A DNA stretch of 64,000 nucleotides, taken from contig NZ_CAMPPY010000004.1 in assembly GCF_946902915.1 (NCBI RefSeq), positions 62,001 through 126,000 on the forward strand, in the 5' to 3' direction. This stretch comes from Streptococcus sp. Marseille-Q5986. GTDB taxonomy: Bacteria > Bacillota > Bacilli > Lactobacillales > Streptococcaceae. Of this stretch, positions 6,583-25,270 are shown piece by piece. Numbering within the stretch: position 1 is the stretch's first letter; each line of letters opens with the position of its first letter. Made by a program: the position numbers and the translations under genes. The notes beneath the pieces are model-generated. The model worked only from the letters and a program-made list of their open reading frames with translations. It was not told the origin of the DNA and searched no databases.

Positions 6583-6606
6583 ACAAAAAGCCCTTTAATA
6601 AGGGCT
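6583..6606 (-). terminator. cysK terminator
   Basis: AGCCCTT-ATTA-AAGGGCT hairpin (6589-6606) followed on the - strand by TTTTTGTTT, 17 nt past the cysteine synthase stop. Confidence 0.85.
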
Positions 6607-6622
6607 AAGTGCATTTAGGAGA

Positions 6623-7549
6623 CTACACTTCAAATTCATAGAGTGCTGTAGACAAATAACGTTCGCCGTTATCTGGTGCTAAAGCAAGGACTTTCTTACC
6701 TGTACCTAATTTCTTGGCAACCTCAATTGCTCCGTAAATCGCTGCAGCTGAAGAAATCCCAACAAGGAAGCCTTCTTTTCCACCAATTTCACGGCCAAGT
6801 GCTAGAGCATCATCTGACGTTACGCGGACGATACCATCATAGGCCTTTGTATCAAGTGTTTCAGGAATAAATCCAGCTGAGATGCCTTGAATTTTGTGAG
6901 GCCCTGGTTTTTCACCAGACAAGATAGCTGACTCGTCTGCCTCAACTGCATAAACTTGAATGTATGGATTTGCTGCTTTGAGTGCATGAGAAACACCTGA
7001 AATCGTCCCACCAGTACCAACACCACCCACAAAAGCATCTAGTCCATCAGAACCGAAAGCAGCCAGTATTTCAGCTCCTGTTGTTCTTTCGTGTACTTCT
7101 GGGTTAGCTGGGTTATTAAATTGGAGTGGAAGGAAGCCGTCACGTTCAGCAGCGATTTCCTGAGCTTTGGCAATAGCCCCTTTCATTCCTTCGCTACCAG
7201 GAGTGAGGACGAGTTCAGCACTATAAGCTTGGATAATCTTACGTCGTTCCACACTCATCGTTTCTGGCATGACGATAACAACTTTATATCCTTTAGCAGC
7301 ACCAACCCATGAAAGACCGATTCCAGTATTTCCACTCGTTGCTTCAACAATGGTAGCACCCGGTGTTATAATACCATCTTGTTCCGCTTTTTCAATCATG
7401 CTAAGGGCAATACGGTCTTTGACTGAAGATCCTGGGTTAAAGGCTTCTAGTTTAACATAGACATCTGCAGTATCCTCTGGAACAATGTTGTTGAGTTTAA
7501 CAATCGGTGTTTGTCCGATTAGTTCAGTAATATTATTATAAACAGCCAT
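6623..7549 (-). CDS. cysK: Cysteine synthase (O-acetylserine sulfhydrylase)
   Basis: PLP-dependent enzyme making cysteine from O-acetylserine and sulfide. The 308-residue protein shows GSSVKDRIA, whose lysine (about 42) forms the Schiff base with PLP, the substrate loop TSGNTGIG (about 69-76), and the phosphate-binding loop [11 protein letters not shown] (about 175-185). Length and order fit the CysK/CysM group. CysK is more likely than CysM by motif pattern, although pneumococcal annotations use either name. The ATG follows AAAGAGG. It has its own promoter and terminator and stands alone, opposite to rpsB-tsf. Confidence 0.92.
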
Positions 7550-18765: not shown

Positions 18766-19002
18766 ATGACAGAAAAAGAAATTTTTGACCGTATTGTAGC
18801 CATTATCCAAGAGCGACAGGGAGAGGACTTTGTCGTAACAGAGGCCTTGAGTTTGAAAGATGACCTAGATGCGGACTCAGTGGACTTGATGGAGTTCGTC
18901 TTGACACTAGAAGATGAATTCGGAATTGAAATCAGTGATGAGGAAATTGACCAACTTCAAAGTGTAGCGGATGTAGTAGCGATTATTAAAGATAAAAAAT
19001 AG
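18766..19002 (+). CDS. acpP: Acyl carrier protein
   Basis: 78-residue acyl carrier protein. The phosphopantetheine serine lies in DADSVDLMEF (Ser about 39), within the usual four-helix acidic fold and followed by EDEFGIEISDEE. The ATG at 18766 is preceded by GGAGAATAAAAAG. In S. pneumoniae a second acyl carrier protein sits in the fatty-acid synthesis cluster. The copy paired with plsX is thought to serve phospholipid synthesis or uptake of external fatty acids, which I infer here from position alone. A strong terminator follows. Confidence 0.93.
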   Translation: MTEKEIFDRIVAIIQERQGEDFVVTEALSLKDDLDADSVDLMEFVLTLEDEFGIEISDEEIDQLQSVADVVAIIKDKK

Positions 19003-19009
19003 CCAAAAG

Positions 19010-19034
19010 CAACATGCAAGTCATGTTGTTTTTT
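19010..19034 (+). terminator. plsX-acpP terminator
   Basis: CAACATG-CAAGT-CATGTTG followed by TTTTTTAT. Confidence 0.9.
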
Positions 19035-19107
19035 ATTTGCAGAAAAAAGAGAAACTTTTAGTAGAAATTGCGATTGAAGAGATGAGAAAGAACAAGGAGG
19101 AACATTT

Positions 19108-19158
19108 ATGTATGTGACTGGTTTTTATCCGTGGTTCATTAAGTGGTTTTTAAAATAA
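19108..19158 (+). CDS. Micropeptide A, 16 residues, Trp/Lys-rich
   Basis: A complete 16-codon frame encoding MYVTGFYPWFIKWFLK, preceded at 7-nt spacing by a perfect AAGGAGG ribosome site (19094-19100). It is hydrophobic, aromatic and weakly basic, with no double-glycine leader and no signal peptide. A second frame 74 nt downstream encodes a clearly related 17-mer, which argues that both are real genes. Position before double-glycine bacteriocin genes and the ComAB exporter suggests a role as a secreted or membrane-active peptide or a signal, but nothing shows how it would leave the cell. I do not recognise the family. Alternatives are a short leaderless toxin or a leader peptide. Confidence 0.6.
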   Translation: MYVTGFYPWFIKWFLK

Positions 19159-19190
19159 AAATGAATGAATTGTTCATTTTCGAAATTTTT

Positions 19191-19198
19191 TTCGAATA
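19191..19198 (+). promoter_or_regulatory. cin-box-like element in the peptide locus
   Basis: TTCGAATA, differing from TACGAATA at the variable second base, directly after a run of seven T, 33 nt before micropeptide B. This is the layout of a ComX-dependent promoter and would put micropeptide B and the bacteriocin genes under late competence control. Confidence 0.6.
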
Positions 19199-19231
19199 GA
19201 TAAGTGAGAAGAAGAGGAAAGGAGATTAGAA

Positions 19232-19285
19232 ATGATTATTTCAGCTATTTATCCAACTTGGCTATTTAAGTGGCTTAGAGGCTAA
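19232..19285 (+). CDS. Micropeptide B, 17 residues, related to micropeptide A
   Basis: Encodes MIISAIYPTWLFKWLRG, preceded at 7-nt spacing by AAAGGAG (19218-19224). Aligned with micropeptide A, it shares M, aliphatic or aromatic residues, a T/S then G/A, YP, W, K, W and a basic end, with one extra residue after the proline. The flanking DNA is not obviously duplicated, so the match is in the peptide. Strong ribosome site, close spacing to the first bacteriocin precursor (42 nt) and a cin-box-like element upstream point to competence-linked expression. Function unknown. Confidence 0.6.
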   Translation: MIISAIYPTWLFKWLRG

Positions 19286-19327
19286 ACATTAAAGATATAA
19301 CAAAATATAAAAATTGAGGAGAAAAAG

Positions 19328-19501
19328 ATGACAAATTTTGACAACATGGAACAGAACTTTGTAGCTCTTACAGAAGAAGAGTTAATGGATGTGGATGGGG
19401 GAATTATCCCTGTAGCAGTGGCAGCTAGTATTATTGCTGGTTCGGCGTTTGCAGGTTTAAGTGCAGGTGTTGCAATTGGACTCAGTCGAAACAAGAGATA
19501 A
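19328..19501 (+). CDS. Double-glycine bacteriocin precursor 1
   Basis: 57-residue class II bacteriocin precursor. The leader ends in ELMDVDGG (about 18-25), the cleavage site for a C39-peptidase exporter such as ComA or BlpA. The mature part is about 32 residues, hydrophobic and small-residue-rich, with GxxxG-type helix-packing motifs (AGLSAGVAIGL) and a basic tail SRNKR, as in two-peptide bacteriocins. Ribosome site GAGGAG lies 9 nt upstream. First of three double-glycine precursors in a row. It may pair with the peptide at 19631 or 19808; which pair acts together cannot be told from sequence. Confidence 0.82.
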   Translation: MTNFDNMEQNFVALTEEELMDVDGGIIPVAVAASIIAGSAFAGLSAGVAIGLSRNKR

Positions 19502-19513
19502 ATGGTGATATAA

Positions 19514-19612
19514 ATGAATTTTTCAGAAGAATTTGCAGCAATTATTATATCAGCTTCAGGAATAGTAGGACTTTTGTCTGGTGTAGCTATTGGATTGGCT
19601 AGTATTATTTAA
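19514..19612 (+). CDS. Leaderless bacteriocin-like peptide, 32 residues
   Basis: A 32-codon frame 12 nt after precursor 1, with a GGTGA ribosome site 5 nt before ATG. The sequence is almost wholly hydrophobic and includes GLLSGVAIGLASII. The stretch SGVAIGL closely matches SAGVAIGL in the mature part of precursor 1, but the double-glycine leader is absent. It could be a leaderless partner peptide, a truncated duplicate, or a small membrane protein giving immunity by mimicry. I favour a duplicated mature core that lost its leader, but this is inference. Confidence 0.5.
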   Translation: MNFSEEFAAIIISASGIVGLLSGVAIGLASII

Positions 19613-19630
19613 AAAGGAGAGAATGAAACA

Positions 19631-19783
19631 ATGGAAAACTTAAATCAATTTGAATTAATGGGTCAAACTGAACTAGAACAAGTACAGGGAGGTGTAGGCT
19701 TGTTAGTTCTTGTTGGAGGATCTTTATTAGCTGCTGGTGGAGCTGGCATTGCAGGATACTGGTTAGCCCGCACATTTGGATAA
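19631..19783 (+). CDS. Double-glycine bacteriocin precursor 2
   Basis: 50-residue precursor. The leader MENLNQFELMGQTELEQVQGG ends in a double glycine at about residue 21. The mature part is about 29 residues, with repeated GxxxG-like spacing (GGSLLAAGGAGIAGYW) and the short basic tail LARTFG. This glycine-rich transmembrane pattern is typical of one half of a class IIb two-peptide bacteriocin. A GGAGAG ribosome site lies upstream. It stands 18 nt after the 32-residue peptide and 24 nt before precursor 3, so the genes are co-transcribed. Confidence 0.82.
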   Translation: MENLNQFELMGQTELEQVQGGVGLLVLVGGSLLAAGGAGIAGYWLARTFG

Positions 19784-19807
19784 TAAATTTATAGGAGGGA
19801 AAGAAAA

Positions 19808-19963
19808 ATGAAAAAATTGGATGAAAAATTTGATATCATGACAGAAGAAGATTTGACTCTTACTGAAGGAGGCTTCATTGTCACTACTTCCACAGCAATA
19901 GCTTGGGGTGTATTAGGAGTAGCTTCTTATATGTATGGGCGTTATCTAGGGAGTAGACATTAA
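19808..19963 (+). CDS. Double-glycine bacteriocin precursor 3
   Basis: 51-residue precursor with leader ending DLTLTEGG (about 15-22). The mature peptide is about 29 residues: FIVTTSTAIAWGVLGVASYM then YGRYLGSRH, a single membrane-spanning stretch with GVLGV and a basic, Tyr-rich end. Ribosome site AGGAGGG is 8-9 nt upstream. Together with precursor 2 it makes a plausible two-peptide set: one glycine-rich, the other with aromatic residues near the membrane interface. Export would be by ComAB next door or BlpAB elsewhere. Confidence 0.8.
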   Translation: MKKLDEKFDIMTEEDLTLTEGGFIVTTSTAIAWGVLGVASYMYGRYLGSRH

Positions 19964-20001
19964 TCTAAAAATTTGGGATAAAGTATGTGAGGAAATTAAT
20001 T

Positions 20002-20214
20002 ATGAATCACAACATTAATCTCAATACATTGTTACCTAAACTAGCCACTATAGTTCCTTTGTTGGCAATAGCTCTTAATCTAGCGCTTCATGCGATTCGT
20101 ACAGGTTCATTAGTATCCTTTGATTGGAAATGGACTGTAGTTGGTTTACTTGCTTCGGGCTATTTTGGTATTTTTTGCAAAGATTTGAAGAAAAATAATC
20201 GAAATTATAAATGA
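20002..20214 (+). CDS. Small membrane protein, probable bacteriocin immunity protein
   Basis: 70-residue protein with two hydrophobic segments, LLPKLATIVPLLAIALNLAL (about 9-28) and WTVVGLLASGYFGIFC (about 43-58), ending in the basic KDLKKNNRNYK. This is the shape of many class II immunity proteins, and it lies directly behind the precursors. ATG 20002 follows GAGG at 9-nt spacing; a GTG at 19987 would add five residues without a ribosome site. Its TGA overlaps the next ATG (TGATG), so the two are coupled. No family assigned; the role rests on context. Confidence 0.65.
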   Translation: MNHNINLNTLLPKLATIVPLLAIALNLALHAIRTGSLVSFDWKWTVVGLLASGYFGIFCKDLKKNNRNYK

Positions 20215-20384
20215 TGAATCTGAATGGAAAGGATTTTGTGCATGTAAATGGCGGAGTTTTTCCGCCTTGTTTTATCCAGAGACCTATCCGATTCTGCTTA
20301 GTTTGTTTTAGGGAGGATACAAGTACAAAACAACAGATAGTAAGATTGGGAATTGATGGAACATCAGATTGGAGTTTGAGATGA
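20214..20384 (+). CDS. Small hypothetical protein coupled to the immunity gene
   Basis: 56-codon frame whose ATG overlaps the stop of the preceding gene and whose TGA overlaps the next ATG (ATGA). It begins MNLNGKDFVHVNGGVFPPC, a faint resemblance to a double-glycine leader, and continues with a Cys-rich and basic part that I cannot place. Against it being a real gene: a hairpin GGCGGA-GTTTT-TCCGCC followed by TTGTTTTA lies inside it (20250-20274) and looks like a terminator for the bacteriocin genes. Both readings are possible; coupling at both ends favours translation. Confidence 0.4.
   Translation: MNLNGKDFVHVNGGVFPPCFIQRPIRFCLVCFREDTSTKQQIVRLGIDGTSDWSLR
20250..20274 (+). terminator. Possible terminator after the immunity gene
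   Basis: GGCGGA-GTTTT-TCCGCC stem followed by TTGTTTTA, 36 nt past the immunity stop but inside the following small frame. Confidence 0.5.
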
Positions 20385-20590
20385 AAGTCGTTCAATTACT
20401 ACAAAAAGCTTGACCAGAGTTTATTGTATTGTCTAGCTCAATGGCTTATCTAATGATTAGGGTTGTGGCTGATATAAACAAAATAAATCTACCTACATGA
20501 TTTGAATGTTTTGACATACCTACGATTGCATTATTTTTGATGACCTTTATCTCACTTTATAGAAGTGAAGAGAATATCATTTCAGAATAG
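20381..20590 (+). pseudogene. Small membrane protein with two in-frame TGA codons
   Basis: Starting at the ATG that overlaps the preceding TGA, one frame runs 69 codons to TAG at 20588 but is broken by TGA at codon 11 (20411-20413) and codon 40 (20498-20500). Reading both as tryptophan gives a plausible immunity-like protein with two hydrophobic segments (PEFIVLSSSMAYLMIRVV and IPTIALFLMTFISLY) and a charged tail. Each lesion is explained by one G-to-A change in TGG. Probably a decayed immunity gene of the bacteriocin locus. Confidence 0.55.
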
Positions 20591-20630
20591 TTTATTTGTG
20601 GGCATTCATTTTTTAACGGTTACTTTAAGC

Positions 20631-20661: not shown

Positions 20662-21243
20662 GGGTGCGACATGAAGTCGCTTAATTGAACTGTCTGGCAT
20701 GATGACCAGACCAACTATTCCGTTAGTTGAGCCAAATATCAACTGCATGTTCGTCATGTGGTAAGCTGATATGTAAGGTAGCCCTACTTTAAGGTCGAAC
20801 CGTGAGGGGAGACCGATACTGCTAGCAACAAAGCGGTTAGGAAGCTAGGCTTGATAGTATGGCTAACAAATGTGAACCACTGTTAAATGTCGTTAAGTTG
20901 AACAGGCTAAAGTTGCTGATAAGCCTGAACCAAAAGGTGTGCAGTCGGATAACCCTTTCCATGGTGGGGTTACACGGACAGATGACTGCCGGCAGAGAGG
21001 TGGAGCCTAACCTATCATTTTGTTCATTAAGTGGAACATGGTAAGCCTGTATTGTTGCTTCTAGCAAGGCAAATCGTAAGAAATGCTGATAACAGTGCAG
21101 GTATAGGAAAATGGAAAAAGCGAATGCCATCTTGTAATGAGGTGGATAGAGGTTCAAGATTTGCCTCAACTCGAAAGAGTGCAGACTTCCATTCGGTTTC
21201 TAATCACAAGAGAACTTGTAGAATTTTTGAAAGGAGAAAGCAA

Positions 21244-22903
21244 ATGAACAGTAAAATGTGTGCTACTACTAACATAGCCAACAGTTGGGAAAGTATTGAT
21301 TTTGTGAAAGCTGAAATCTATGTTAAAAAACTACAAATGCGTATTGTAAAAGCGTGGAAGTTGGGTAAATTCAACCGAGTGAAATCACTCCAACATTTAC
21401 TAACAACTTCATTCTATGCAAAAGCCTTGGCAGTGAAACGTGTCACTGAAAATCAAGGTAAAAAGACAAGTGGCGTTGATAAAGAGTTATGGCTAACACC
21501 TAACGCTAAATATCAAGCAATCAAGAAATTTAAAGGTCAAGGGCTATCGTCCAAAACCACTAAGACGGGTTTATATTCTTAAGAAAAATGGTAAGAAAAG
21601 ACCTCTTAGTATTCCAACGATGACAGATAGAGCAATGCAGACATTATTTAAGTTCGCCCTAGAACCTATTGCAGAAACAACAGCAGACCCTAATTCTTAT
21701 GGCTTTAGACCTAAAAGAAGCACACAGGATGCGATTGAACAATGTTTCTCAGCTTTGAGTAAGCAAACATCTGCTAAATGGATTTTAGAAGGTGACATTA
21801 AAGGATGTTTTGATAATATCAATCATGAGTGGATAATGAAACACATTCCAATGAACAAAACAATACTTGGAAAATGGTTGAAAAGTGGTTACATCGAAAA
21901 CAGGAAGTTATTTTCAACAGAGTTTGGAAGTCCTCAAGGTTCTCCGATTTCACCAATCATTTCAAATATGGTACTAGATGGTATCGAGAGAAAACTCTCT
22001 ACCACATTTAGAAAGAAAAAGGTTAATGGTAAAGTCTATGCACCAAAAATTAATTTTGTTAGATATGCGGATGACTTTATTGTTACTGGTGTCAGTAAGG
22101 GACTATTGGAGAATGAGGTCAAACCAGTTATTATTCAGTTCTTGAAAGAACGTGGTTTGGAGTTATCTGAAGAAAAAACGTTGATAACCCATATCACGGA
22201 CGGCTTTGATTTTCTGGGTGTAAACATTAGAATGTACGACGGAAAACTACTAACCAAACCCTCCAAAAAGAATTACGAAAGTATTGTTTTGAAAATCAGG
22301 GATATTATCAAAAAGAACCCGTCGATGAAGCAGGAGTTGTTAATCCGTAAGTTAAACCCTATTATTATAGGTTGGGTTAACTACCAAAAGCACAATGTTT
22401 CAAAAGAAGCATTTCAAAGACTTGATTTTGATATTTATCAGTGTTTATGGCAGTGGTGTATCCGAAGACATCCTAAAAAGGGGAGAAAGTGGATAGCCAA
22501 TAAATATTTCCATACTTTTGATAGTCGTAGTTGGATTTTTAGTGTTCCAACTGTCGATACAATGGAAAATGGCGAGCCGTTCTATCTTCGCTTGAAATAT
22601 GCTTCTGATACTGATATTCGCCGACATATTAAAATTAAGGCGGAAGCCAATCCGTTTGATGAACAATGGCAACTGTATTTTGAGGAACGATAAGAAAAGC
22701 AAATGCGACAGGAACTAAAAGGAAGACGTGTGATTAACGGACTTTACTATAAACAAAAAGGGCTTTGTCCAGTTTGCGAATTGAAGATTACCAAAGAAAC
22801 AGATTTCCGAGTTCATCAAACAGTAAAGAACCATAAACCAATAAAGACATTGGTACACCCTACTTGTCATAAAAATGTAAAAGAAAACACGCTGGTTCTC
22901 TAA
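21244..22903 (+). pseudogene. ltrA: Group II intron reverse transcriptase/maturase, broken
   Basis: Intron-encoded protein with reverse transcriptase, maturase (X) and HNH endonuclease domains. ATG 21244 follows AAAGGAGAAAGCAA. RT motifs: SYGFRPKRSTQDAI, EGDIKGCFDNINH, GSPQGSPISPIISN and FVRYADDFIV with the catalytic YADD. The X domain is around GWVNYQKHNV, and the HNH zinc cysteines are in CPVC and the final HPTCHKN. Two lesions interrupt it: one extra G at GGG (21541-21543), after which GYRPKP would continue in frame, and TAA at 22691-22693 before the HNH domain. The intron cannot supply its own active protein as read. Confidence 0.9.
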
Positions 22904-22922
22904 CGAGGACTTATAGAAGCTT

Positions 22923-22956
22923 GAGCCGTGTGAGGGGAAACTCTCATACACGGTTC
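22923..22956 (+). other. Group II intron domain V
   Basis: Thirty-four-nt hairpin with GAGCCGTGTGAG pairing to CTCATACACGGTTC across GGGAAACT, including the catalytic AGC triad and the two-nucleotide bulge on the 3' side. Confidence 0.9.
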
Positions 22957-23004
22957 TTAGAGGGGAAAGAGGTCGTGAGACCTCTGACCTACTCGACCAA
23001 AAGT

Positions 23005-23116: not shown

Positions 23117-25270
23117 ATGAAATTTGGGAAACGTCATTATCGTCCGCAGGTGGATCAGATGGACTGCGGTGTAGCTTCATTAGCTATGGTCTTTGGCTAC
23201 TATGGTAGTTATTATTCTTTGGCTCACTTGCGAGAATTAGCCAAGACGACCATGGATGGGACGACGGCTTTAGGCTTGGTCAAGGTGGCAGAGGAGATTG
23301 GCTTTGAGACGCGAGCGATCAAGGCGGATATGACGCTCTTTGACTTGCCAGATTTGACCTTTCCTTTTGTTGCCCATGTGCTTAAGGAAGGGAAATTGCT
23401 CCACTACTATGTGGTGACTGGGCAGGATAAGGACAGCATTCATATTGCCGATCCAGATCCTGGAGTGAAATTGACCAAATTGCCACGTGAGCGTTTTGCG
23501 GAAGAATGGACAGGAGTGACTCTGTTTATGGCACCCAGTCCAGACTACAAGCCTCATAAGGATCAAAAGAATGGTCTTCTTTCTTTTATCCCTATATTAG
23601 TGAAGCAGCGTGGTTTGATTGCCAATATCGTTTTGGCAACACTCTTGGTCACCTTGATTAACATTGTGGGTTCTTATTATCTGCAGTCTATCATTGATAC
23701 CTATGTGCCGGATCAGATGCGTTCGACGCTGGGGATTATTTCTATTGGTTTGGTCATCGTCTATATTCTCCAGCAGATCTTGTCTTACGCTCAGGAGTAT
23801 CTCTTGCTTGTTTTGGGGCAACGCTTGTCGATTGATGTGATTTTGTCCTATATCAAGCATGTTTTTCACCTGCCTATGTCCTTTTTTGCGACGCGCAGGA
23901 CAGGGGAAATCGTGTCTCGTTTTACAGATGCCAACAGTATCATTGATGCGCTGGCTTCGACCATTCTTTCGATTTTCTTAGATGTGTCAACGGTTGTCAT
24001 TATTTCTCTTGTTTTATTTTCACAAAATACCAATCTCTTTTTCATGACCTTATTGGCGCTTCCTATCTACACAGTGATTATCTTTGCTTTTATGAAGCCG
24101 TTTGAAAAGATGAATCGGGATACCATGGAAGCCAATGCGGTTCTGTCTTCTTCTATCATTGAGGACATCAACGGTATTGAGACTATTAAGTCTTTGACCA
24201 GTGAAAGTCAGCGTTACCAAAAGATTGACAAGGAATTTGTGGATTATCTGAAAAAATCCTTTACCTATAGTCGGGCAGAGAGTCAGCAAAAGGCTCTGAA
24301 AAAAGTTGCCCATCTCTTGCTCAATGTCGGCATTCTCTGGATGGGAGCTGTTCTGGTCATGGATGGCAAGATGAGTTTGGGGCAGTTGATTACCTATAAT
24401 ACTTTGCTGGTTTACTTTACCAATCCTTTGGAAAATATCATCAACCTGCAAACCAAGCTTCAGACAGCGCAGGTTGCTAATAACCGTCTAAATGAGGTTT
24501 ATCTGGTAGCTTCGGAGTTTGAGGAGAAGAAAACGGTTGAGGATTTAAGCTTGATGAAGGGAGAAATGACCTTCAAGCAGGTTTACTACAAGTATGGCTA
24601 TGGTCGAGACGTCTTGTCGGATATCAATTTGACCATTCCCCAAGGTTCTAAGGTGGCTTTTGTGGGGATTTCAGGATCAGGTAAGACGACTTTGGCCAAG
24701 ATGATGGTTAATTTTTACGACCCTAGTCAGGGAGAGATTAGTCTGGGTGGTGTCAATCTCAATCAGATTGATAAAAAGGCTCTGCGTCAGTATATCAACT
24801 ATCTGCCTCAACAGCCCTATGTCTTTAACGGAACGATTTTGGAGAATCTTCTCCTTGGAGCCAAGGAGGGGACGACACAGGAAGATATCTTACGGGCGGT
24901 TGAGTTGGCAGAGATTCGGGAAGATATCGAGCGTATGCCACTAAATTACCAGACAGAATTGACTTCGGATGGAGCAGGAATTTCAGGTGGGCAACGTCAG
25001 AGAATCGCTCTGGCGCGTGCTCTCTTGACAGATGCCCCTGTCTTGATTTTGGATGAGGCGACCAGCAGTTTGGATATTTTGACAGAGAAGCGAATCGTGG
25101 ATAATCTCATGGCTTTGGACAAGACCTTGATTTTCATTGCTCACCGCTTGACCATTGCTGAGCGGACAGAGAAGGTTGTTGTCTTGGATCAGGGCAAGAT
25201 TGTTGAAGAAGGGAAGCATGTTGATTTGCTTGCACAGGGTGGCTTTTATGCCCATTTGGTGAATAGCTAG
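23117..25270 (+). CDS. comA: Competence-peptide ABC exporter/protease ComA
   Basis: Membrane ABC transporter with an N-terminal C39 peptidase that cuts double-glycine leaders and exports the mature peptide. The 717-residue protein has the peptidase Cys in QMDCGVASLAMV (Cys 17) and the His in LHYYVV (about 96). Six membrane segments follow between about 160 and 440. The nucleotide-binding domain has Walker A GISGSGKTT (about 518-526), the signature SGGQRQRIALARAL (about 625-638) and Walker B VLILDEATSSLD. The classical substrate is the competence-stimulating peptide pre-ComC; the bacteriocin precursors next door fit too. The ComE-type site upstream gives positive feedback. Confidence 0.96.
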   Translation: MKFGKRHYRPQVDQMDCGVASLAMVFGYYGSYYSLAHLRELAKTTMDGTTALGLVKVAEEIGFETRAIKADMTLFDLPDLTFPFVAHVLKEGKLLHYYVVTGQDKDSIHIADPDPGVKLTKLPRERFAEEWTGVTLFMAPSPDYKPHKDQKNGLLSFIPILVKQRGLIANIVLATLLVTLINIVGSYYLQSIIDTYVPDQMRSTLGIISIGLVIVYILQQILSYAQEYLLLVLGQRLSIDVILSYIKHVFHLPMSFFATRRTGEIVSRFTDANSIIDALASTILSIFLDVSTVVIISLVLFSQNTNLFFMTLLALPIYTVIIFAFMKPFEKMNRDTMEANAVLSSSIIEDINGIETIKSLTSESQRYQKIDKEFVDYLKKSFTYSRAESQQKALKKVAHLLLNVGILWMGAVLVMDGKMSLGQLITYNTLLVYFTNPLENIINLQTKLQTAQVANNRLNEVYLVASEFEEKKTVEDLSLMKGEMTFKQVYYKYGYGRDVLSDINLTIPQGSKVAFVGISGSGKTTLAKMMVNFYDPSQGEISLGGVNLNQIDKKALRQYINYLPQQPYVFNGTILENLLLGAKEGTTQEDILRAVELAEIREDIERMPLNYQTELTSDGAGISGGQRQRIALARALLTDAPVLILDEATSSLDILTEKRIVDNLMALDKTLIFIAHRLTIAERTEKVVVLDQGKIVEEGKHVDLLAQGGFYAHLVNS

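Follow-up and report, generated by a model that had tools for sequence, protein, structure and literature searches.

A family of 16–17-residue peptide genes behind the SigX boxes of the cab locus in mitis-group streptococci

Features of the locus

The window is the whole stretch of DNA that was analysed, 64 kb in length, and corresponds to positions 62001-126000 of contig C4 (label G000:C4) in a streptococcal genome of 2.13 Mb. The names acpP (18766-19002), comA (23117) and comB (25283) are those that we take to apply to the genes at these positions. The features of the locus, given in window coordinates with strand and with the basis of each assignment in parentheses, are as follows:

18766..19002, +, acpP, upstream edge of the cab locus (sequence coordinates; synteny with relatives)
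19069..19076, +, degenerate SigX box of micropeptide gene 1, TGCGATTG (listing of upstream sequences; exception L031)
19094..19100, +, Shine-Dalgarno sequence AAGGAGG of gene 1, 7 nt 5' of the ATG (sequence)
19108..19158, +, micropeptide gene 1, type A, MYVTGFYPWFIKWFLK, 16 aa (ORF list, translation)
19191..19198, +, SigX (ComX) box TTCGAATA after a T-run, -10 element of gene 2 (motif match)
19218..19224, +, Shine-Dalgarno sequence AAAGGAG of gene 2, 7 nt 5' of the ATG (sequence)
19232..19285, +, micropeptide gene 2, type C, MIISAIYPTWLFKWLRG, 17 aa (ORF list, translation)
19328..19501, +, double-glycine class II bacteriocin precursor, 57 aa, cab cargo (Pfam Bacteriocin_IIc, 8.6e-8; NCBIfam TIGR03949, 2e-11)
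19514..19612, +, hydrophobic ORF of 32 aa between bacteriocin genes (ORF list; no family match in Pfam or NCBIfam)
19631..19783, +, double-glycine class II precursor, 50 aa (TIGR03949, 1.9e-7)
19808..19963, +, double-glycine precursor, 51 aa (weak match to Bacteriocin_IIc, under the curated cut-off; double glycine by eye)
23117..25270, +, comA, downstream edge of the cab locus (ORF list; synteny as in PMC13059744)
from 25283, comB (ORF list; synteny as in PMC13059744)

In Streptococcus mitis, the locus for competence-associated bacteriocins (cab) extends from plsX-acpP to comAB (PMC13059744; PMC11921387), and it has also been described in PMC2828477 and PMC5729180. In the window, an apparent terminator lies 3' of acpP, ahead of both micropeptide ORFs. 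The third precursor (19808) is followed by small ORFs and then by a group II intron, comA and comB. The intron, at 20711-22997 between the cargo and comA (Rfam matches at 20711-20844 and 22921-22997), has a reverse transcriptase frame that appears to be split into two ORFs, 21031-21582 and 21620-22693 (function assigned by eye). The start of a 57-aa ORF at 20211-20384 resembles the first 38 nt (86.8%) of the pneumococcal ORF rio4, which was discovered through ribosome profiling (PMC9426450). The Streptococcus sRNA family SpF51 (RF02438) matches the window at 6585-6629 on the minus strand.

A first-pass annotation of this DNA had called the two micropeptide ORFs, and re-reading the sequence bears out their coordinates and translations as well as the strong ribosome site, AAGGAGG or AAAGGAG, at 7-nt spacing ahead of each; the gap between them, given there as 74 nt, is 73 nt (19159-19231). 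The pattern YP-x(0,1)-W-x(2)-K-W that had been drawn from the pair fits both peptides (the types were aligned separately and the joint fit was judged by eye), and the sequences and type alignments agree with the annotation in that a double-glycine leader is absent from both. What it had overlooked were the SigX box at 19191-19198, the degenerate box of gene 1 and the membership of both genes in an array family. With a T-run followed by TNCGAATA as the box form tested, gene 2 has a good box, TTCGAATA, which occurs once in the 64 kb window (19191-19198, between both ORFs), and gene 1 has the degenerate TGCGATTG in place of the TGCGAATA or TACGAATA found in most other type A copies. Because its own box is degenerate, gene 1 may be poorly transcribed in the window strain. 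Gene 2 belongs to type C, the micropeptide copy that adjoins class II bacteriocin genes. Profiles that include the window peptides match gene 1 and gene 2 in their own genome at E 1.3e-9 and 3.4e-10, respectively. The spacer between the genes is able to form two AT hairpins, the first of which recurs in some type A copies (by eye); we do not call it a terminator because it is absent from the other types (by eye).

Tandem cassettes of SigX box and micropeptide ORF

A search of 284 Streptococcus genomes at the DNA level gave a match at E ≤0.01 in 173 genomes, many of these matches being weak, and located tandem copies approximately 125 bp apart in many genomes. From this search, 79 regions from 76 genomes were taken, and five genomes added later brought the set to 84 regions from 81 genomes. 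A looser first pass over the first 79 regions yielded 231 copies and 61 peptide sequences. The stricter census of all 84 regions yielded 251 core matches, of which 230, namely 182 in types A, B, B2 and D and 48 in type C, have an ATG at the codon where one is expected and together encode 56 distinct peptides; among the remainder, one has a GTG start and 20 are without a start at the expected codon, one of these at a contig end. The census favours known types because the patterns were built from copies already seen. The types are defined as follows, with Lys as the C-terminal residue in most of them:

Type A: MYVTG(F/L)YPW(F/L)IKWFLK and variants
Type B: MYLPILLPW(F/L)IKWYLK
Type B2: MYLPI(F/L)Y(P/S)W(F/Y)(T/I)KLF(F/L)K
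Type D: MFISMFYPW(F/L)TELFFK
Type C: M(I)ISVIYPIWLFKW(L/F)(R/K)x

An intact micropeptide copy occurs at least once in 83 of the 84 regions. Box-linked copies number 1-7 per region in 80 regions and belong to several types, so that the two genes of the window are not a fixed pair. Both acpP and comA are present in 52 regions, and all 137 copies there lie between these anchors; 26 regions have only one anchor and six have none. Outside the acpP-comA interval, no core match was found on either strand in the fetched regions.

The SigX -10 core CGAATA starts 32-41 nt 5' of the ATG in 219 of the 230 copies—among the 14,810 background ATGs that lie outside the interval, 2 have it at -45 to -20—and is missing from the expected place in 11 copies, window gene 1 included. 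Counted from the boxes, 212 of the 264 in the intervals lead directly into a micropeptide ORF of 16-19 aa (lengths of 18 and 19 aa represent upstream in-frame starts). A further 38 lead into other ORFs (18 into a 42-aa double-glycine peptide, 13 into a membrane protein of about 66 aa and seven into others, three of which are, by eye, truncated or N-run micropeptides), and 14 have no ORF (by eye, seven decayed micropeptides and two boxes cut at contig ends). A ribosome site, under a permissive pattern, precedes 227 of the 230 copies, and the spacer from a stop codon to the next box measures 23 to 50 nt, with 33-35 nt in 154 of 161 cases. The repeated unit is a cassette of about 125 bp, comprising a T-rich SigX promoter, a ribosome site, an ORF of 16-17 codons and an AT-rich spacer that runs into the next box. 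Since a micropeptide ORF stands behind most boxes, the comparison of regions indicates that the tandem SigX boxes of cab loci are mostly micropeptide promoters and not bare promoter repeats.

Other products also occur behind these boxes. The 42-aa double-glycine peptide (MKEHYYGF...GG plus 20 aa, with Trp and Arg) has its own SigX box in L094, L096, L097 and other regions, and this box lies 33-35 nt 5' of the ATG, the same layout as in the micropeptide cassette. The membrane-type protein of about 66 aa behind its own SigX box (13 boxes) starts with MFLKKEVILLG and is possibly an immunity protein. An apparent 13-aa family after some boxes (MLHVSTNF...) was discarded, since it results from reading the micropeptide DNA in a different frame that starts at an overlapping TTG: a normal 16-aa ORF lies inside that frame in nine of ten cases, and the tenth (L103) has a type outside the search of the script.

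Type C includes 18 copies without an in-frame start (17 in which it is lost and one frameshifted, by eye). The box is mutated to TCAAATA in 13 of these and retained in the other five; gene and promoter of this type, as judged from these copies, often decay together. Bacteriocin genes are still present behind the start-less copies, and type C, at least, is consequently dispensable.

Coding selection, distribution and mosaic structure

Substitutions were counted on minimum spanning trees of distinct copies, which is a crude procedure and not a full phylogenetic model. For types A, B, B2 and D (70 distinct sequences), the 138 changes are distributed 23/22/93 over codon positions 1/2/3, and 76 are synonymous where 37.6 are expected (0 of 2000 shuffles; omega approximately 0.31). 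Frames +1 and +2 of the same sequences give omega values of 1.7 and 2.4, and the 5'UTR control (45 nt 5' of the ATG) gives 0.91-1.02 in its three frames. Type C (19 distinct sequences) has an omega of 0.42, with 13 synonymous changes where 7.2 are expected (22 of 2000 shuffles); its frame contrast is weaker because the other frames give 1.18 and 0.66. Start-less type C copies, represented by seven distinct sequences only, give 1.27. Stop codons within 15 codons occur in 40 and 58 of the 70 A/B/B2/D ORFs in the other frames and in none of the 70 in frame, the last count being one for which the search pattern itself requires an in-frame end. These counts indicate that the micropeptide reading frame is under purifying selection, and selection specific to one frame marks a protein-coding gene and not a chance ORF.

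The first-pass proposal of a real, repeated family at a competence-linked bacteriocin locus is thus sustained by the type profiles and by frame selection across genomes, synonymous change predominating and reading frames being kept among copies. The conserved RNA that it had named as an alternative was also sought, and none was detected: Rfam has no match at E up to 1 over the micropeptide DNA, RNAalifold on 23 units returns 0 consensus pairs, and fold z-scores range from -1.52 in the spacer to 0.85 over gene 1, with two stretches over gene 2 near 0. A conserved RNA in place of a coding function is rejected on these three results.

The family is found in 81 of the 284 Streptococcus genomes. 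The A/B/B2/D profile matches 78 of them at E <1e-5, G096 holds a real but truncated copy (E 0.0015), and the type C profile adds G214 and G267. The next-best matches in the genus (G034, G060, G283, G084 and G002; E 0.0036-0.018) lack a SigX box on the matching strand of their 3-kb loci, and among 395 genomes of the order, no genome outside Streptococcus has a match better than E 0.0156. Going by these E-values and the missing SigX boxes, there are no convincing relatives beyond the mitis group. In named GTDB genomes, a strict DNA pattern finds 29 stretches, all in records titled Streptococcus (mitis, oralis, infantis, pseudopneumoniae, pneumoniae [two] and unnamed species); the species are given by title only, and that collection keeps the two pneumoniae records as species entries of their own. 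Viral contigs have no match to the strict pattern, which covers only part of types A and B, and no match was found in phages and plasmids.

Micropeptides accompany comA in 79 of the 83 Streptococcus genomes with a comA of at least 85% identity. One of the four exceptions (G202) is at a contig edge, and the other three (G100, G158 and G203) have acpP-comA gaps of 5116, 1485 and 4751 nt, respectively, without a SigX box or a micropeptide. G158 is pneumococcus-like, since its gap carries the D39 ORF rio4 at 98.9%. In seven genomes whose comA is less closely related, acpP and comA are only 216-248 nt apart, with no box or micropeptide in between, and two genomes (G126 and G231) have micropeptides and no comA found at ≥85%. 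These comparisons indicate a family restricted to the acpP-comA locus in the regions fetched and to the mitis-group clade in the genomes searched.

For a comparison along the window, regions were divided by the identity of their ComA to that of the window into 34 at ≥98%, here termed mitis-like, and 40 below that value, here termed oralis/infantis-like (the labels are our own, a few regions are possibly misplaced, and the best match was taken per 200-nt step). Positions 18800-19199, with acpP and gene 1, are nearest to oralis/infantis-like regions (95.5-97.0% versus 80.8-88.9%); 19200-19399, with gene 2, are nearest to mitis-like regions (97.5% versus 86.6%); 19400-19799 fit both groups poorly; and 19800-20599 are again nearest to oralis/infantis-like regions (92.9-96.0%). 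The stretch 18800-20600 is therefore an apparent recombination mosaic with a junction near the micropeptide pair, and the position of this junction suggests that micropeptide repeats act as recombination joints. Apparent recombination remnants occur in L101 (near 5337, oriented coordinates) and L105 (near 5171), where the type C start MIISVI is fused to the unrelated codons QDLDETI.

The published cab locus and possible roles of the peptides

In place, SigX boxes and double-glycine cargo, the locus studied here corresponds to the published cab locus, to which the micropeptides belong; the published scan, as far as the available text of PMC13059744 and PMC11921387 goes, differs in having no 16-17 aa genes between the boxes. 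The scan of PMC13059744 was for ORFs of 100-300 nt with a double-glycine motif, and ORFs of 51-54 nt fall outside it for that reason; un-annotated small ORFs were also sought in PMC11921387, the available text of which mentions none of the micropeptide kind. According to PMC13059744, cab transcription requires ComE and SigX, deletion of four of five boxes reduces cab expression, and a cab locus has no fewer than 2 SigX boxes and as many as 38, these repeats being read as accumulated boxes, possibly recombination remnants, with a dosage benefit. PMC6001120 reports that CSP induces four to five small ORFs at a cab-type operon, ties the TTCGAATA box to SigX and to this operon in two S. mitis strains and gives two or three boxes in the two strains, unexplained in the available text. 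A table in the same paper lists 229 nt from box to start for SMSK321_1305. In 10 places among our regions, the distance from the last live box to a bacteriocin start downstream is exactly 229 nt; three of these were inspected (L085, L088 and L089), and each has a type B micropeptide and a dead type C copy in between.

We found no description of the micropeptide family in the literature within reach of the search, which stopped short of supplements, figures and most subscription papers, and none of six core peptide strings occurs in the text searched. PMC5729180 mentions, without sequences in its available text, a few excreted S. pseudopneumoniae peptides of unknown function, which may overlap the micropeptides. 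A string search of the available text of the D39 ribosome-profiling paper (PMC9426450) found no peptide with the core strings, an absence that is uninformative if pneumococci are without the family.

Production of the peptides in late competence, alongside the Cab bacteriocins, is strongly implied. Their net charge (K, R, D and E only) ranges from 0 to +3 and is positive in 213 of the 230 copies; it is 0 in three of the 56 distinct peptides, common type D included. Helical amphipathicity is not above that of shuffled sequences (a median of 25% of shuffles reach the observed moment, computed over the last 11 residues only), and an amphipathic helix was accordingly dropped as an antimicrobial argument, having no support beyond composition in this test. 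With such charges and such amphipathicity, an antimicrobial action is something that we can only infer. A double-glycine precursor lies within 140 nt downstream of 46 of the 48 intact type C copies, and these precursors form 11 cargo clusters, two of them apparently truncated; 15 B2 or D copies precede the 42-aa double-glycine peptide. An identical micropeptide precedes up to four cargo clusters, and cargo-specific immunity is unlikely because the same peptide adjoins several unrelated bacteriocin clusters. The ORF list of the window locus and profiles on its small ORFs revealed no recognisable exporter for leaderless peptides. The ComA transporter exports double-glycine peptides, and leaderless ones are not expected as substrates.

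The best explanation as a whole, which we put forward tentatively, would be a SigX-driven micropeptide family whose products are a membrane-acting accessory of the Cab bacteriocins, and the role that we consider most likely for the peptides, short of a firm preference, is that of a leaderless membrane-active accessory of competence-linked predation. Under this explanation, leaderless, hydrophobic and aromatic-rich peptides would act at the membrane as the constant accessory of a variable Cab cargo. They would contribute to the permeabilisation or lysis of neighbouring cells, or to the release or tolerance of the bacteriocins by the producer itself, and their export would need a route around the double-glycine step of ComAB. 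A tandem arrangement would increase the amount of peptide and combine different variants. Membrane action is suggested by the hydrophobic aromatic composition, the tandem diverging copies and the independence from cargo; against it stand the amphipathicity at composition level only, the zero charge of type D, the lack of a recognised exporter and the loss of type C in some strains. A broader proposal, possible but doubtful, would make the family a class of competence effectors, in which tandem autonomous cassettes of SigX promoter and 16-17 codons encode a cocktail of leaderless membrane peptides, stand as the constant part at the front of an exchangeable bacteriocin locus and serve as recombination joints for cargo swaps.

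Among known systems, the phenol-soluble modulins of staphylococci are leaderless, carry formyl-Met, are encoded by tandem quorum-controlled genes and form longer amphipathic helices. Compared by description only, the micropeptides are like them in being leaderless and encoded in tandem and differ in a helical amphipathicity that is not above shuffles. Leaderless bacteriocins are hydrophobic and Trp-containing and are sometimes composed of several peptides. They include the aureocin A53, lacticin Q and enterocin families and are without a leader (PMC6131525), as the micropeptides are by sequence, but entries in the available text of PMC6131525 have 30-31 aa and another abstract gives 70 aa, in contrast to 16-17 aa; no dedicated transporter or immunity gene was recognised beside the micropeptides. 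CibAB and other double-glycine competence bacteriocins are likewise SigX-controlled and involved in competence predation (PMC13059744), and CibAB and the Cab class II bacteriocins have the double-glycine leader for ComAB that the micropeptides lack.

The main rival, for type C especially, is that the ORFs are cis-acting leaders, the translation of which tunes the next gene through coupling, attenuation or mRNA stability, with little or no function for the peptide itself. We regard this as unlikely overall. Each box-linked ORF would indeed come first on its SigX transcript, nearly all intact type C copies are as close to a double-glycine precursor as counted above, and upstream boxes, which are ORF-linked in the regions here, raise cab expression (PMC13059744). 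However, neither the 23 units nor the window folds point to a conserved RNA structure, residues vary conservatively and are not fixed towards the C terminus, a copy with another promoter behind it lacks a gene that it could tune, and loci with a dead type C copy retain their bacteriocin genes.

It is also improbable, in our estimate, that the product is an intracellular membrane micropeptide of the producer, regulating or protecting the membrane or a membrane protein in late competence (self-tolerance to Cab or CbpD, or modulation of ComAB). The strong hydrophobicity without a recognised export signal, the expected co-expression with cargo and the adjacency of one peptide to unrelated cargos, as befits a general factor, would agree with such a role; the last observation, with up to four cargo clusters behind an identical peptide, makes immunity to a single cargo unlikely, and no partner was identified.

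A short hydrophobic pheromone that is exported, reimported and sensed by an Rgg-type regulator, as are XIP and SHP, seems quite unlikely. The ComS/XIP and SHP precursors are of similar length, hydrophobic, streptococcal and tied to competence, and the 16-17 aa and the Trp content of the micropeptides recall ComS/XIP-type peptides. The micropeptides differ from them in having no Rgg-sized ORF nearby (between acpP and comA of the window, the intron ORFs aside), in the mostly C-terminal Lys and in the box of a late sigma factor, and up to seven copies per locus together with the charge reversal of type D are ill-suited to receptor specificity. That the ORFs are incidental, without any peptide function, in remnants of a duplicated promoter repeat, as the reading of the repeats in PMC13059744 would allow, is very improbable in view of the frame-specific purifying selection, which is missing in start-less copies and in the UTR, and of the nearly universal ribosome site (permissive pattern).

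Comparative sequence analysis thus points to an overlooked family of genes for peptides of 16-17 residues in streptococci of the mouth and throat, each copy usually with its own competence promoter, at the head of a bacteriocin locus. The reason for the many SigX boxes of cab loci was left open in the available text of PMC6001120 and sought in dosage or remnants in PMC13059744; the answer offered here is that most of these boxes are promoters of overlooked genes. Published promoter truncations and cab deletions may have taken out micropeptides along with the boxes, so that part of the reported effects could be due to the peptides. The family consists of very short genes under selection, and the locus that houses them controls killing between species as well as gene exchange with the pneumococcus.
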